A DNA stretch of 64,000 nt from Catellatospora paridis (lineage in GTDB: Bacteria; Actinomycetota; Actinomycetes; Mycobacteriales; Micromonosporaceae): NCBI RefSeq assembly GCF_009720365.1, contig NZ_ML769314.1, forward strand, positions 425,264-489,263, given 5' to 3'. The translations under genes were made by a program, and so were the position numbers. The notes below the pieces were generated by a model that was not told where the DNA came from, ran no database searches, and worked only from the letters and a program-made list of their open reading frames with translations. Below, one piece after another: positions 4,234 through 37,083 of the stretch (position 1 is its first letter; every line of letters starts with the position of its first letter).

Positions 4234-4574
4234 GCAGCAAGGGTAGCCGACCCGCGGCCATCGCCGACGCCCACCGCGTGGCGACCTGTGACGAACCGCT
4301 CGCACCGACCACCACCAGCCCCGCCTGCCCCTGCCTCACCCCGACGCGCACCACGCGACGCGAACACCTCGCGCCGCGCCCTGCGCGCGTGGCGGTGGCG
4401 CGCCGCGGGAGGTCTGGGCGGCCGTGCGTCGCCTCGCCGAAAATAGACGTTGGCCTATCTGGATGAGAAAATAAAGATCATTCTCATCCAGATAGGCCAA
4501 CGTCTATGGTAGTCGGGCCTGGGGCCAGGGCCGGGCGGCGCGGGCCGCCGGGCGGGTCGCGGGTGGGGCGGGTG
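4234..4574. other. 341-bp intergenic region with hairpin
   Basis: This stretch between the DUF3043 start and the murA stop holds no credible gene. Its one clear structure is the long perfect hairpin at 4444-4508 described separately. The remaining part near 4234-4443 is GC-rich without codon periodicity and presumably carries the DUF3043 promoter on the minus strand. Confidence 0.6.
4444..4508 (-). terminator. 27-bp perfect hairpin, repeat family A copy 1
   Basis: Two 27-base arms (4444-4470 and 4482-4508) are perfectly complementary around an 11-base AT-rich loop. The arms contain ACGTTGGCCTATCTGG. The element lies just past the murA stop, so it most likely ends murA transcription on the minus strand. 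The same arm sequence recurs in the hairpin at 13154-13217. Confidence 0.75.
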
Positions 4575-16207: not shown

Positions 16208-16252
16208 AAATGAAACCGGCCCCCTCCGCATCGGAGGGGGCCGGTTTCATTT
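16208..16252. terminator. 21-bp perfect bidirectional terminator
   Basis: Arms 16208-16228 and 16232-16252 pair perfectly around a 3-base loop, with A-rich and T-rich outer ends (AAATGAAA and TTTCATTT). It therefore works as an intrinsic terminator in both directions, between ctaF and trpD, which converge here. Confidence 0.85.
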
Positions 16253-32931: not shown

Positions 32932-34173
32932 ATGACGGTGCGGGGCTGGGCCTGGCTGACGTTGATCGTCCTTTGTGGCGCGCTGGCGGTGACCGTGGCG
33001 CTGCTGGTGCCGTGGCACCGGCCGCCCGCGCCGCGCGCCGACCAGCTCGCCGCGCTGGCCACGCTGCCCACCGACCGGGTCGAACAGGCCCGGCAGCTGC
33101 GCGGCGAGCTGCGCTGGATCACGTACCCGGCGATGCTGGTCGGGTTGGGCGTGGCGCTCGTGCTGGGGCTGACCCCGCTGGGCTCCTGGCTGGTGGGGCT
33201 GGTGCCCGGACCGTGGCTGGCCAAGGTGCTCGGCGGCGGGCTGCTGGTGCTGCTGGCCGCGGACCTGATCACGCTGCCGTTCGCGGCCTGGCGGCACACC
33301 GTGGCGGTGCGCTACGGGCTGTCCACCCAAGGCTGGGGCGGCTGGGCGGTCGACCTGCTCAAGGGATACGCCGTCGGCGCGGTGCTCGGCGCGGTCGCCC
33401 TGCTCGGCTTCTACGGCCTGACCAGGCTGGCGCCGAACTGGTGGTGGGCCTTCGGCACGGTCGGCGCGGCCGCGCTCGTGGTGCTGCTCAGCTTCGTGTT
33501 CCCGGTGCTGGTCGAACCGGTGTTCAACAAGTTCACGCCGATGGCCGACGGGCCGCTGCGCACCGAACTCATGGAGCTGGCCCAGCGCGACGGGGTGCCG
33601 GTGCGCGACGTGCTGGTCGCCGACGCGTCCCGGCGCACCACCTCGCTCAACGCATACGTCAGCGGCATCGGCCCGACCCGGCGCATCGTCGTCTACGACA
33701 CGCTGCTGCGCGAGGCCCCGCAGGCGGAGATCGTCGCCGTCGCCGCGCACGAACTGGGCCATGCGAAACGCGGCGACGTGGTGATCGGCACGGTCATCGG
33801 CGCGCTCGGCGCGGCGATCTTCGTGGTCGGCCTCTACCTGCTCGGCGCGTGGAGCTGGCTGCTGCACCGGGCGGGGGTCGAGTCGATCGCCGAGCCGCGC
33901 GCGATCGGGCTGCTGCTGGCCGTCGCGACGGTGGGCGGGCTGCTGGCGGGGCCGGCGCAGGCGTACGTGTCGCGGCTGATCGAGGCGCGCGCCGACGAGC
34001 ACGCGCTGGAGCTGACCGGGGACCCGGCCGGGTTCGAGCAGATGCAGGGGCGGCTCTCCCTGGTCAACCTCGGCGACCCCGACCCGCCCGCCTGGGAGCA
34101 GGCGCTCTTCGGCAGCCACCCCACCACCGTGGAACGCATGGCCGCCGCCCGCGCGTACGCCCGCGACCACTGA
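32932..34173 (+). CDS. M48 family membrane metallopeptidase (Ste24-like)
   Basis: Zinc protease of 413 residues with about six or seven membrane helices, related to CAAX prenyl protease Ste24 and HtpX. The zinc-binding HELGH lies in VAVAAHELGHAKRGD and the third ligand in SRLIEARADEHALELTG. SFVFPVLVEPVFNKFTPM is a Ste24-type block. The C-terminal FGSHPTTVERMAAARAYA is the usual Ste24 ending. Its predicted leaderless promoter separates it from the NYN gene. It probably acts in membrane protein quality control. Confidence 0.93.
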   Translation: MTVRGWAWLTLIVLCGALAVTVALLVPWHRPPAPRADQLAALATLPTDRVEQARQLRGELRWITYPAMLVGLGVALVLGLTPLGSWLVGLVPGPWLAKVLGGGLLVLLAADLITLPFAAWRHTVAVRYGLSTQGWGGWAVDLLKGYAVGAVLGAVALLGFYGLTRLAPNWWWAFGTVGAAALVVLLSFVFPVLVEPVFNKFTPMADGPLRTELMELAQRDGVPVRDVLVADASRRTTSLNAYVSGIGPTRRIVVYDTLLREAPQAEIVAVAAHELGHAKRGDVVIGTVIGALGAAIFVVGLYLLGAWSWLLHRAGVESIAEPRAIGLLLAVATVGGLLAGPAQAYVSRLIEARADEHALELTGDPAGFEQMQGRLSLVNLGDPDPPAWEQALFGSHPTTVERMAAARAYARDH

Positions 34174-34180
34174 CCGAAAA

Positions 34181-34241
34181 CTGACATGTATCAAATCCTA
34201 GCCAGTTCGTTATGAGGTGGCTAGGATTTGATACATGTCAG
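34181..34241 (+). promoter_or_regulatory. 24-bp perfect inverted repeat operator of abiE
   Basis: Arms 34181-34204 and 34218-34241 are perfectly complementary around a 13-base spacer. The right arm holds TAGGAT (34222-34227) and, seven bases on, the abiEi ATG (34235). AbiEi antitoxins are known to bind inverted repeats upstream of their operon and repress it. A repressor bound here would cover the promoter and the start codon, giving tight autoregulation. The same hairpin could act on RNA level as well. Confidence 0.75.
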
Positions 34242-34843
34242 AGCGGGGAGCGCGCCGAGCGCGGGTGCGGGCACTGCCACCCACCTTCACCGCCGCTCGC
34301 GCGCGCGACGCCGGGATCGGCTCGCGCGACCTGCGGCACCTGGCCGACAGCGGAGACGTCGACGAACTGTCCCGCGGGGTGTATCGGCGCTCGGACGCAC
34401 CCGAGTCGGCCTACCTGGACCTGCTGGCCGTCGCCGCCCGCTGCCCGGACGGCGTGGTCTGCCTGGAGTCCGCGCTCTCCCTGCACGACCTCATCGACGA
34501 CCTGCCCGGTGAGGTCCATCTCGCGGTCGCGCGAGGGCATCACGCGCCGCACATCACCTATCCCGTGGTCGACGTGCACCGCTTCGACGACGTGACCTTC
34601 GAGATCGGGGTGGAGTTGTTCGAGGCGGCCCCGGGCGAGCACGTTCGCGTCTACAGCCCGGCCCGCAGCGTCGTCGACGCGATGCGGCTGCGGCACCGGG
34701 TCGGCGACGGGCTGGCATTGCACGCCCTGCGGCGCTACCTGCGCCGGACGGGACAGCGCGGAGTGCCGGAACTGCTGCGGCTCGCGCGATCGTTCCGGGT
34801 CGAGGGGCCGGTTCGTTTTGCCGTCGAGGCGGTGCTCGCCTGA
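34235..34843 (+). CDS. abiEi: AbiEi-like antitoxin of a type IV toxin-antitoxin system
   Basis: Antitoxin of 202 residues. An N-terminal winged-helix region (PTFTAARARDAGIGSRDLRHLADSGDVDELSRGVYRR) is typical of the AbiEi_4 family, and the C-terminal domain counters the toxin without direct binding in characterised systems. The ATG lies within the right arm of a 24-bp inverted repeat, and no ribosome binding site is present, so translation is probably leaderless. The stop overlaps the toxin start (TGATG). The pair sits between two conserved core genes (M48 protease and pimB), which suggests acquisition. Confidence 0.88.
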   Translation: MSERGARRARVRALPPTFTAARARDAGIGSRDLRHLADSGDVDELSRGVYRRSDAPESAYLDLLAVAARCPDGVVCLESALSLHDLIDDLPGEVHLAVARGHHAPHITYPVVDVHRFDDVTFEIGVELFEAAPGEHVRVYSPARSVVDAMRLRHRVGDGLALHALRRYLRRTGQRGVPELLRLARSFRVEGPVRFAVEAVLA

Positions 34844-35751
34844 TGCCCAACCCCCGCCGTGACACCACCGCCGGTCGGGTCTTCAACGACCTGCGCAATC
34901 TGGCCCTGCGCAACGGCCGCAACACCGAGGAACTGCTGATGGCGTACGCCCTCGAACGGTTCCTGCTGAGGTTGAGCATGACCGCGCCGCAGCGGTTCGT
35001 CCTCAAGGGTGGGCTGCTGCTGGCTCTGTTCGGGTCCCGCCGTCCCACGCGCGATGTCGACCTGCTGGGCCGTGGCGTCGTCAACAGCCACGAGGAGATC
35101 AGTAACGAGATCGCCCGGATCTGCGCGGTCGAGGTGGACGACGGTGTCCTGTTCGCCGCGCAGCGGATCAGGACGGCCACCATTCGCGAGGATGCCGACT
35201 ACGCGGGCGTGCGGGTGATCCTGCCTGCGTCGCTGGGGCGAGCTCAGCTCAAGCTGAGTCTCGATGTGAACTTCGGCGATCCGGTGACGCCCGGGCCGCG
35301 TCGGGTCCGGCTGGCGCAACTCCTTTCCGCCGAGACCTTCGACATGCTTGGTTACCCGATCGAGACCGTCATCGCGGAGAAGCTGACCACCGCGGTGGCC
35401 CTGGGCGACGCGAACACCCGTGACCGCGACTACGCCGACATCCACCGGCTCGTCGGCGGCAACGACCTAGCCGGCGATGCGGTCACCGAAGCGGTGCTGA
35501 AGACGGCGGCATATCGCGGGATCGAGCTGACGCCGTTGAGTCAGGTGGTCCACGACCTCGCGGAGCGCAGGCAGAGCGCCTACACCGCGTGGCGACGGCG
35601 GCAGGGCGCGGATGCCGCGGGTTATCCGGAAAGCTTCCGCGAGGTCGTTGAGGGGGTCGTGGAGTTCGCCGATCCGCTGCTCACCGGCGCGGCTGCCGGG
35701 GCGGACTGGTCGGCCGCCACACGTCGCTGGTCGGCCGGATCGGGCCGGTAG
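34843..35751 (+). CDS. abiEii: AbiEii-like nucleotidyltransferase toxin
   Basis: Toxin of 302 residues, DNA polymerase beta-type nucleotidyltransferase. Motif I is KGGLLLALFGS (K55, G64, S65), followed by RDVDL with metal-binding D71 and D73. The third acid is D141 in LSLDVNFGD, and K180 with R193-D199 (RDRDYADI) forms the C-terminal motif. All active-site residues are present, so it looks functional. Characterised relatives such as MenT-type toxins modify tRNA and block phage propagation. Translationally coupled to the antitoxin. Confidence 0.9.
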   Translation: MPNPRRDTTAGRVFNDLRNLALRNGRNTEELLMAYALERFLLRLSMTAPQRFVLKGGLLLALFGSRRPTRDVDLLGRGVVNSHEEISNEIARICAVEVDDGVLFAAQRIRTATIREDADYAGVRVILPASLGRAQLKLSLDVNFGDPVTPGPRRVRLAQLLSAETFDMLGYPIETVIAEKLTTAVALGDANTRDRDYADIHRLVGGNDLAGDAVTEAVLKTAAYRGIELTPLSQVVHDLAERRQSAYTAWRRRQGADAAGYPESFREVVEGVVEFADPLLTGAAAGADWSAATRRWSAGSGR

Positions 35752-35754
35752 GCT
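35749..35754 (+). promoter_or_regulatory. Predicted -10 box, leaderless pimB
   Basis: TAGGCT overlaps the stop codon of the AbiEii gene and lies six bases before the pimB ATG at 35761, with no ribosome binding site. It lets pimB be expressed independently of the toxin-antitoxin operon. Confidence 0.45.
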
Positions 35755-35760
35755 GCGCGG

Positions 35761-36891
35761 ATGCGCACGCTGCTGGTGACCAACGACTTCCCGCCCCGCC
35801 CTGGGGGCATCCAGCAGTTCCTGCACAACCTCGCGATCCGCCAGCCCGACGGCGAGCTCGTCGTCTACGCCTCGACCTGGCGCGACCCGAAGCAGTTCGA
35901 CGCCGAGCAGCCGTATCCGGTGGTCCGGGACCGGACCGGGGTGCTGCTGCCCACGCCACGGGTGGCGAGGCGGGTCGCCGAGCTGGCCCGCGCGGAGGGC
36001 TGCGACCGGGTCTGGTTCGGCGCTGCCGCGCCGCTCGGGTTGCTGGCCCAGGGCCTGCGCCGGCGGGCGGGGATGCAGCGGGCCGTCGGCGTCACGCACG
36101 GGCACGAGATCGGCTGGGCGGCACTGCCGGGTGCGCGCAGCGCGCTGCGCCGTATCGCCGACGGCAACGACGTGCTCACCTACCTCGGGGAGTACCAGCG
36201 CGTCCGGCTGGCCAAGGCGCTGGGGGAGCGGACCAGCCTGCAGCGGCTCGCCCCCGGTGTGGACTCGGCGATGTACCACCCCGACGTGGACGGCGCGGCG
36301 GTGCGGGCCCGGCATGGGCTCACCGGGCGCCCGGTGATCGTGTGCGTGTCCCGGCTGGTGCCGCGCAAGGGCCAGGACACGCTGGTACGCGCGCTGCCGC
36401 TGGTGCGCCGCGCGATCGGTGACGCGGCGCTGCTGCTGGTCGGCGGGGGACCGCACCGGCCCACCGTGCAGCGGCTGGCCCGCGAGCTCGACGTGGCCGA
36501 CCACGTGGTGCTGACCGGCTCCGTGCCGTGGGCCGAGCTGCCCATGCACTACGCGGCCGGCGACGTCTTCGCCATGCCGTGCCGCACTCGAAACCGGGGC
36601 CTCGACGTCGAGGGTTTGGGCATCGTCTACCTGGAGGCGTCCGCGGTGGGCCTGCCGGTGATCGCCGGCGACTCCGGTGGCGCGCCGGACGCCGTCCGCG
36701 AGGGCGAGACCGGATATGTGGTGCCCGGCCGCGACGTGGACGCACTCGCCGCCCGCCTGGTCGAGCTGCTGTCCGACGACGCGCTGCGGACCAAGATGGG
36801 CGCGGCGGGCCGCTCCTGGGTCGAGCAGGAGTGGGGCTGGGACCTCCAGGCCCGCCGCCTGCGCGCCCTCCTCACCACCGCCCCCGCCTGA
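35761..36891 (+). CDS. pimB: GDP-mannose-dependent phosphatidylinositol mannosyltransferase (PimB)
   Basis: GT4 glycosyltransferase of 376 residues. The N-terminus VTNDFPPRPGGIQQFLHNLA carries the Gly-rich acceptor loop. The C-terminal Rossmann half has VSRLVPRKGQDTL and the E-x7-E retaining motif in EGLGIVYLEASAVGLPVIAG. It resembles the mycobacterial PimB' that adds the second mannose to phosphatidylinositol on the cytosolic face of the membrane. This fits an actinomycete with phosphatidylinositol mannosides. Located directly after the AbiE pair but with its own leaderless promoter. Confidence 0.88.
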   Translation: MRTLLVTNDFPPRPGGIQQFLHNLAIRQPDGELVVYASTWRDPKQFDAEQPYPVVRDRTGVLLPTPRVARRVAELARAEGCDRVWFGAAAPLGLLAQGLRRRAGMQRAVGVTHGHEIGWAALPGARSALRRIADGNDVLTYLGEYQRVRLAKALGERTSLQRLAPGVDSAMYHPDVDGAAVRARHGLTGRPVIVCVSRLVPRKGQDTLVRALPLVRRAIGDAALLLVGGGPHRPTVQRLARELDVADHVVLTGSVPWAELPMHYAAGDVFAMPCRTRNRGLDVEGLGIVYLEASAVGLPVIAGDSGGAPDAVREGETGYVVPGRDVDALAARLVELLSDDALRTKMGAAGRSWVEQEWGWDLQARRLRALLTTAPA

Positions 36892-36984
36892 CCCCGCCTG
36901 ACTCCGCCCAAATCCACCCGAACGACCGACCCGCTTCGTGCACCCGCCCCGCCTCCGGAGGCACCCCACCCCGCGCCGGCGGCC

Positions 36985-37044
36985 GCAGTTTCGGGGAAAC
37001 TGCCGGAATCAGGCACGGCGAAGGTGCAGTTTCCCCGAAACTGC
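36985..37044. terminator. Nested inverted repeat after pimB
   Basis: Two 19-base sequences (36985-37003 and 37026-37044), GCAGTTTCGGGGAAACTGC and its exact complement, are separated by 22 bases. Each is itself a hairpin (GCAGTTT/AAACTGC around CGGGG). The region can form one long or two short stems. It lies between convergent pimB and the GCS2-like gene and is probably a bidirectional terminator. Confidence 0.7.
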
Positions 37045-37083
37045 GGGGATGGTGCAGCCCCGTGGCACGGGCTGCGGGGCGGG

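Follow-up and report, generated by a model that had tools for sequence, protein, structure and literature searches.

The window analysed, by which we mean the whole 64-kb stretch of DNA, belongs to contig C3 of a genome of approximately 9 Mb (G000) and has a G+C content of 72%, which together with its relatives points to an actinomycete. It contains a pair of AbiE-type genes, abiEi and abiEii, located between the genes for an M48 metallopeptidase and a glycosyltransferase, with a perfect inverted repeat at the start of abiEi. The pair was present in two of the 11 genus genomes, G129 being the only other genus genome that carries it. The features of the region are as follows:

32932..34173, plus strand: M48 metallopeptidase gene, the upstream neighbour (Pfam Peptidase_M48)
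33834..34187, minus strand: 117-aa frame, antisense over the end of the M48 gene, with the mirrored ATG of the left arm as its start
34181..34204, no strand: left arm of the predicted operator, 24 bp, mirror of the -10 and ATG (repeat scan; one difference in G129, at 34200)
34205..34217, no strand: spacer of 13 nt, unconserved (5/13 positions differ in G129)
34218..34241, no strand: right arm of the predicted operator, over the -10, the probable transcription start and the start codon (0/24 differences in G129)
34222..34227, plus strand: predicted -10 TAGGAT, 7 nt ahead of the ATG (spacing enriched in relatives)
34235..34843, plus strand: abiEi antitoxin gene, 202 aa, probably leaderless (PADLOC AbiEi 284 bits; Pfam AbiEi_4 26.6 bits, cut-off 25)
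34843..35751, plus strand: abiEii nucleotidyltransferase toxin gene, 302 aa (Pfam AbiEii 118 bits; PADLOC 259 bits; family-invariant residues present)
35749..35754, plus strand: predicted -10 TAGGCT of the glycosyltransferase gene, its TAG being the toxin stop (TAGGCT, 6 nt and ATG in genus genomes)
35761..36891, plus strand: GT4-type glycosyltransferase gene, the downstream neighbour (Pfam Glycos_transf_1), called pimB in the first-pass annotation

The two genes form an operon in which AbiEi comes first, followed by AbiEii, the order expected of AbiE, and the start of abiEii overlaps the stop of abiEi by one base (TGATG); a one-base overlap was also found in a few relatives and a four-base overlap in most others. 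In addition to the Pfam and PADLOC matches, the latter spanning residues 9-202 of AbiEi, the AbiEi profile matches, over positions 12-198, a solved chain of the S. agalactiae-type AbiEi (6y8q; E 1.7e-25), and the toxin profile matches AbiGII (9hlo_B; E 2.7e-54). Together these matches bear out the AbiE identity given to the pair in the first-pass annotation. AbiG (AbiGI-AbiGII, 9hlo), compared by molecule names, was the sole solved match of the toxin profile and a joint best match of the antitoxin profile. When 35 toxins including that of the window were aligned, 27 columns were invariant, among them K55, G56, R67, T69, D71, D73, D141, K180, R193, D196 and D199; by this alignment the nucleotidyltransferase motifs, which we take the invariant residues to represent and to have catalytic meaning, are intact. 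Searches at E 0.001 gave no NCBIfam match for AbiEi or AbiEii and no second copy of either in the genome.

We found that the M48 gene lies upstream of the glycosyltransferase gene in the fetched flanks of eight of the nine genus genomes that lack AbiE, the flank of the ninth (L042) being too short upstream to show it. This agrees with the earlier proposal that the pair interrupts an M48-pimB neighbourhood, and insertion of the AbiE pair between the M48 and glycosyltransferase genes is supported. The name pimB was not confirmed, as the product is a GT4-type glycosyltransferase by its domain and none of the 25 NCBIfam matches listed reached the cut-off. TAGGCT followed by 6 nt and ATG precedes the glycosyltransferase gene in all 11 genus genomes, nine of them without AbiE, so that this predicted promoter must be older than the AbiE insertion. 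The gene had been credited with a promoter of its own inside the last codons of the toxin gene; a separate, conserved promoter is indeed predicted, but it begins at the toxin stop codon. The end of the toxin gene (GGATCG...CCGGTAG) resembles by eye the flanks of the AbiE-less genomes, and its last codons may thus derive from the host side. We also asked whether the residues after the last tryptophan of the toxin mark the insertion joint, but rejected this because six residues at that place are present in L045 and L047 too. In three AbiE-less genomes (L036, L038 and L041), the M48 gene is followed, as judged by eye, by a palindrome centred on TTTGGTGTCATGATCTGCGG or on a sequence close to it; in the genome of the window, this sequence has 12 matches at two mismatches or fewer, which at two places form inverted pairs 5 nt apart.

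The abiEi ATG is located at 34235-34237, and a TGA at 34229, in frame and 6 nt before it, leaves no earlier start possible. The alternative downstream start is a GTG at codon 11; since the three differences from G129 in codons 1-10 are all synonymous third-position changes, the ATG is favoured. Scanning for sigma-70 type promoters gave no -35/-10 pair at abiEi. The spacing of the predicted -10, TAGGAT, and the in-frame stop fit a leaderless start, and we infer that abiEi transcription is leaderless, an architecture backed by the spacing and axis statistics given below.

The arms of the inverted repeat (34181-34204 and 34218-34241) are complementary at 24 of 24 positions with 13 nt between them, comparable to the pair of approximately 23-bp inverted repeats expected in an AbiE promoter. 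As annotated previously, the repeat spans both TAGGAT and ATG; these are located in the right arm, which extends 7 nt into abiEi (ATGTCAG). From base composition alone, approximately 1.6e-6 perfect 24-bp repeats with spacers of 3-100 nt would be expected in 64 kb. No further copy of the whole 24-nt arm was found in the genome within three mismatches, and no tandem second repeat pair was present among the repeats listed for 33900-36000 (25 of 44). Perfect pairing alone is insufficient to call an operator, because the window contains at least three more palindromes that pair perfectly, their arms being 21-27 bp long. The one at 4443-4507 has 27-bp arms and an 11-nt spacer, is AT-richer than its flanks and lies approximately 67 nt beyond the stop of the minus-strand EPSP synthase gene; those at 36983-37046, after the glycosyltransferase gene, and 16208-16252 have arms of 21 bp each.

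Comparison with G129 revealed differences at one of 48 arm positions versus five of 13 spacer positions (Fisher P = 0.001). Between the two genomes, AbiEi has 33 synonymous and one non-synonymous changes (dN/dS 0.01) and AbiEii has 35.5 and 12.5, respectively (dN/dS 0.12), a pattern that suggests purifying selection on both. Synonymous divergence was 0.22 for abiEi and 0.16 for abiEii, compared with 0.10 and 0.12 for the compared parts of the flanking genes; the AbiE genes are thus approximately 1.3-2.3 times as divergent as their neighbours, as if exchanged or evolving separately.

Relatives of AbiEi were found in 50 of 300 family genomes (E <= 1e-3), 27 of 394 class genomes (E <= 1e-10) and 38 of 396 phylum genomes (E <= 1e-15), and the loci analysed were the best 29-30 matches of each search. 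A scan of genome contigs added one relative (L033), and further searches returned already sampled genomes and one new locus (L074). The 60 loci from the family, class and contig searches gave 56 usable and 50 non-redundant loci, in 20 of which TANNNT ended exactly 7 nt before an in-frame start, compared with 1.5 expected and a maximum of six in 200 shuffles; each of the other distances from 0 to 35 was represented by 0-5 loci. The dyad axis, first mapped in the 27 loci whose TANNNT was 6-8 nt from a start, was at -24.0 from the start codon in 21 of the 26 non-redundant loci with the 7-nt spacing, whereas shuffling the DNA upstream of the -10 gave a mean of 0.8 and a maximum of four in 100 shuffles. 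The pool with later loci comprised 38 candidates, in 29 of which the axis preceded the first base of the -10 by 11 nt. This pool, from which the 26 loci also come, partly includes the set in which the rule first emerged; where centres tied, the one listed first was used, and L108 therefore counts as a miss in the pooled tally.

The rule was fixed before the phylum loci and L104-L110 were added. Within the latter group, in which L104-L109 are close to loci already used and L110 is not, L104, L105, L107 and L110 agree with the rule, L108 and L109 agree through a tie, and L106 misses it by 0.5 bp. In L045-L048 the axis is also at -24.0, with the hexamer GACACT instead of TANNNT. The half-site core GTATC(A/G)AATC is common to the window, L054 (both arms) and L110 (one arm), and the repeat of L054 is placed ahead of a Shine-Dalgarno-like stretch. 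The same geometry therefore recurs in many relatives, and the earlier view of an operator layout special to this locus, or unique in including the start codon, was rejected.

The folding of the region as RNA (-51.6 kcal/mol, z -10) and the location of the palindrome only 7 nt from the M48 stop would also suit a transcription-ending hairpin of the M48 gene, its overlap with the AbiE promoter being incidental or a second use. Other perfect palindromes of the window lie after the EPSP synthase and glycosyltransferase genes, and different palindromes follow the M48 gene in the AbiE-less L036, L038 and L041 (by eye). However, the palindrome has no following U-tract and is absent from the terminator scan list, for which loops were limited to 3-8 nt; the axis keeps one position relative to the -10 and start codon among relatives whose repeats differ in sequence; and arm mismatches in the relatives are G-U in 31 of 139 cases (22% versus 18% expected), with no clear bias. 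We consider it quite unlikely that termination is the chief role of the palindrome, although its nearness to the M48 stop and the other palindromes in the window allow for a 3'-hairpin role.

A related reading concerns read-through RNA from the M48 gene, in which the 24-bp stem would hide the AbiEi start codon so that only the leaderless transcript would make antitoxin, a translational insulator that would be added to repression and would be compatible with an AbiEi operator. The RNA fold places the AUG within the stem; the left arm is missing from the leaderless transcript, and 90 nt of RNA starting at the ATG have no unusual structure (z -0.03). Any DNA dyad, however, folds as RNA, and the repeats of the relatives are imperfect and without clear sign of selection for RNA pairing; we regard this insulator as unlikely.

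The perfection of the mirror might instead reflect a divergent leaderless promoter, with the left arm starting the 117-aa frame over the end of the M48 gene. Minus-strand TAGGAT and ATG are exact in the left arm of the window, and the frame is also open in G129, an openness that says little for a frame lying antisense to a conserved gene. Among 27 non-redundant axis-conforming loci, however, a mirrored TANNNT was present in three and a mirrored ATG in one, the window being within both counts and thus the only locus with a mirrored start codon. In G129, which is near-identical and outside this count, the mirrored -10 reads GAGGAT owing to the change at 34200, so even this genome does not conserve a divergent promoter. 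This explanation is very improbable.

For the reading of the repeat as an AbiEi operator, the case rests on the shared position of the repeats, because many of them are weak when taken one by one. A free scan with 16-nt arms placed 22 of 57 loci above every one of 20 shuffles; among the 27 leaderless candidates, 12 exceeded every one of 100 shuffles, and L053 was at chance. The repeats of the window and G129 scored highest (24/26 pairs), the next seen being L046 with 23. The phylum-wide set comprised 29 usable loci, 28 of them outside the class; here the 7-nt spacing was at chance (three loci versus 2.5 expected) and two of the four loci with TANNNT at 6-8 nt missed the axis rule (L086 and L099; L076 and L077 fit). 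Since this set, taken almost wholly from outside the class, did not reproduce the peak, we restrict the claim to near relatives and the class-level loci.

Within the class and family, 63 usable loci gave 58 non-redundant loci, the plasmid locus L110 included; L022, L030, L031, L054 and L085, in which the N-terminus is missing from the match, and L096, in which no start was found, were omitted. Twenty-six of the 58 fit both spacing and axis strictly, a Shine-Dalgarno-like leader is present in 14, and 18 show neither, suggesting that leaderless and leadered forms coexist. Among the 18, the axis is 0.5-2 bp from -24 in L005, L014, L021, L058 (with an axis score not beyond its shuffles) and L106, and at -24.0 in L045-L048. 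Neither L009 nor L033 showed an operator of the start-codon type. Strict matches made up 5/13 of the loci at least 48% identical to the AbiEi of the window, 18/27 at 40-48% and 3/18 below 40%, and 10 of the 14 leadered loci are less than 40% identical to it. In the leadered L024, L026, L028, L052, L053 and L067, the right arm reaches or enters the Shine-Dalgarno-like stretch, not the start codon. Phage records gave three remote matches, and plasmid records gave 131 matches, all below 60% identity (40 of the 131 among the matches listed), and 645 toxin matches (12 among the matches listed). In addition, L022, from another family genome, is a fragment of an AbiE pair with both sides cut off and 71% identity over the C-terminal half of the antitoxin.

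The system is of a known kind. Rv2827c of M. tuberculosis represses its own operon and binds 23-bp repeats arranged in pairs, the two repeats of a pair being separated by 13 bp, and the gene-proximal repeat pair overlaps the -10 and start site (PMC7319586). The Rv2827c-Rv2826c pair, an AbiE-like type IV system, has the same order of an AbiEi-type antitoxin followed by a nucleotidyltransferase-like toxin, and the gap is 13 in both, with arms of 23 bp there and 24 bp here; however, there are two repeat pairs (four half-sites) there and one pair here, and the probe ends at -1, whereas the right arm here enters the coding sequence by 7 nt (PMC7319586). The solved Rv2827c chain gave no match to the AbiEi of the window or its profile up to E 1. 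The same paper describes for the S. agalactiae AbiE 23-bp promoter repeats with a 3-bp gap, negative autoregulation and positive co-operativity (PMC7319586). The likeness to this system lies in the nearly full-length antitoxin profile match (6y8q) and in promoter repeats of approximately 23 bp; the described gap of 3 bp differs from the 13 nt of the predicted operator here. MenT toxins are reported to modify tRNA. In M. tuberculosis, 32 of the 37 toxin-antitoxin pairs for which a primary start is known are leaderless (PMC3898074), and the first gene of such operons is leaderless, as probably is abiEi; the passages considered do not mention an operator held at a set distance from the start codon (PMC3898074). 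No description of an axis-to-start-codon rule was found in the open-access literature searched, and the conserved promoter geometry is, as far as that literature goes, undescribed.

Taken together, these comparisons make it very likely that the locus is an AbiE-type (type IV) operon with one leaderless promoter, repressed by AbiEi through the repeat over the -10 and first codon. AbiEi very probably binds both repeat arms, the axis of which lies 24 nt upstream of the ATG and 11 nt upstream of the -10. Occupation of the right half-site would cover the -10, the putative transcription start and the first codon; because this half-site lies over the promoter core, we propose that AbiEi excludes RNA polymerase and so represses its own operon. 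When AbiEi drops, the transcript would begin at or beside the A of the ATG, the abiEi message would be translated without a Shine-Dalgarno sequence, and the toxin, presumably acting by nucleotidyl transfer, would then be translated via the TGATG overlap. An operator over the -10 and start codon, as first annotated, is therefore probable, predicted from the repeat and the shared spacing in the relatives. Any accompanying implication that operator binding also governs translation was not upheld; the evidence points to repression at the DNA level rather than control of translation itself.

For the class, we lean, by a small measure, towards a large clade of AbiE systems sharing a standardised, phase-locked switch, with the operator axis placed 11 nt ahead of the -10 and 24 nt ahead of a leaderless start codon, so that one half-site is both operator and promoter core and also provides the transcription start and the first codon. 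A lone palindrome would then become a testable rule, a near base-pair-exact geometry of AbiEi operators in relatives with unlike repeats, and the rule predicts operators and start codons for the AbiE pairs of the clade. If true, antitoxin repression would be tied to leaderless translation, and thus to expression under conditions favouring leaderless messages, and the clade would offer a clean system in which to ask whether antitoxin autorepression and leaderless translation are coupled.
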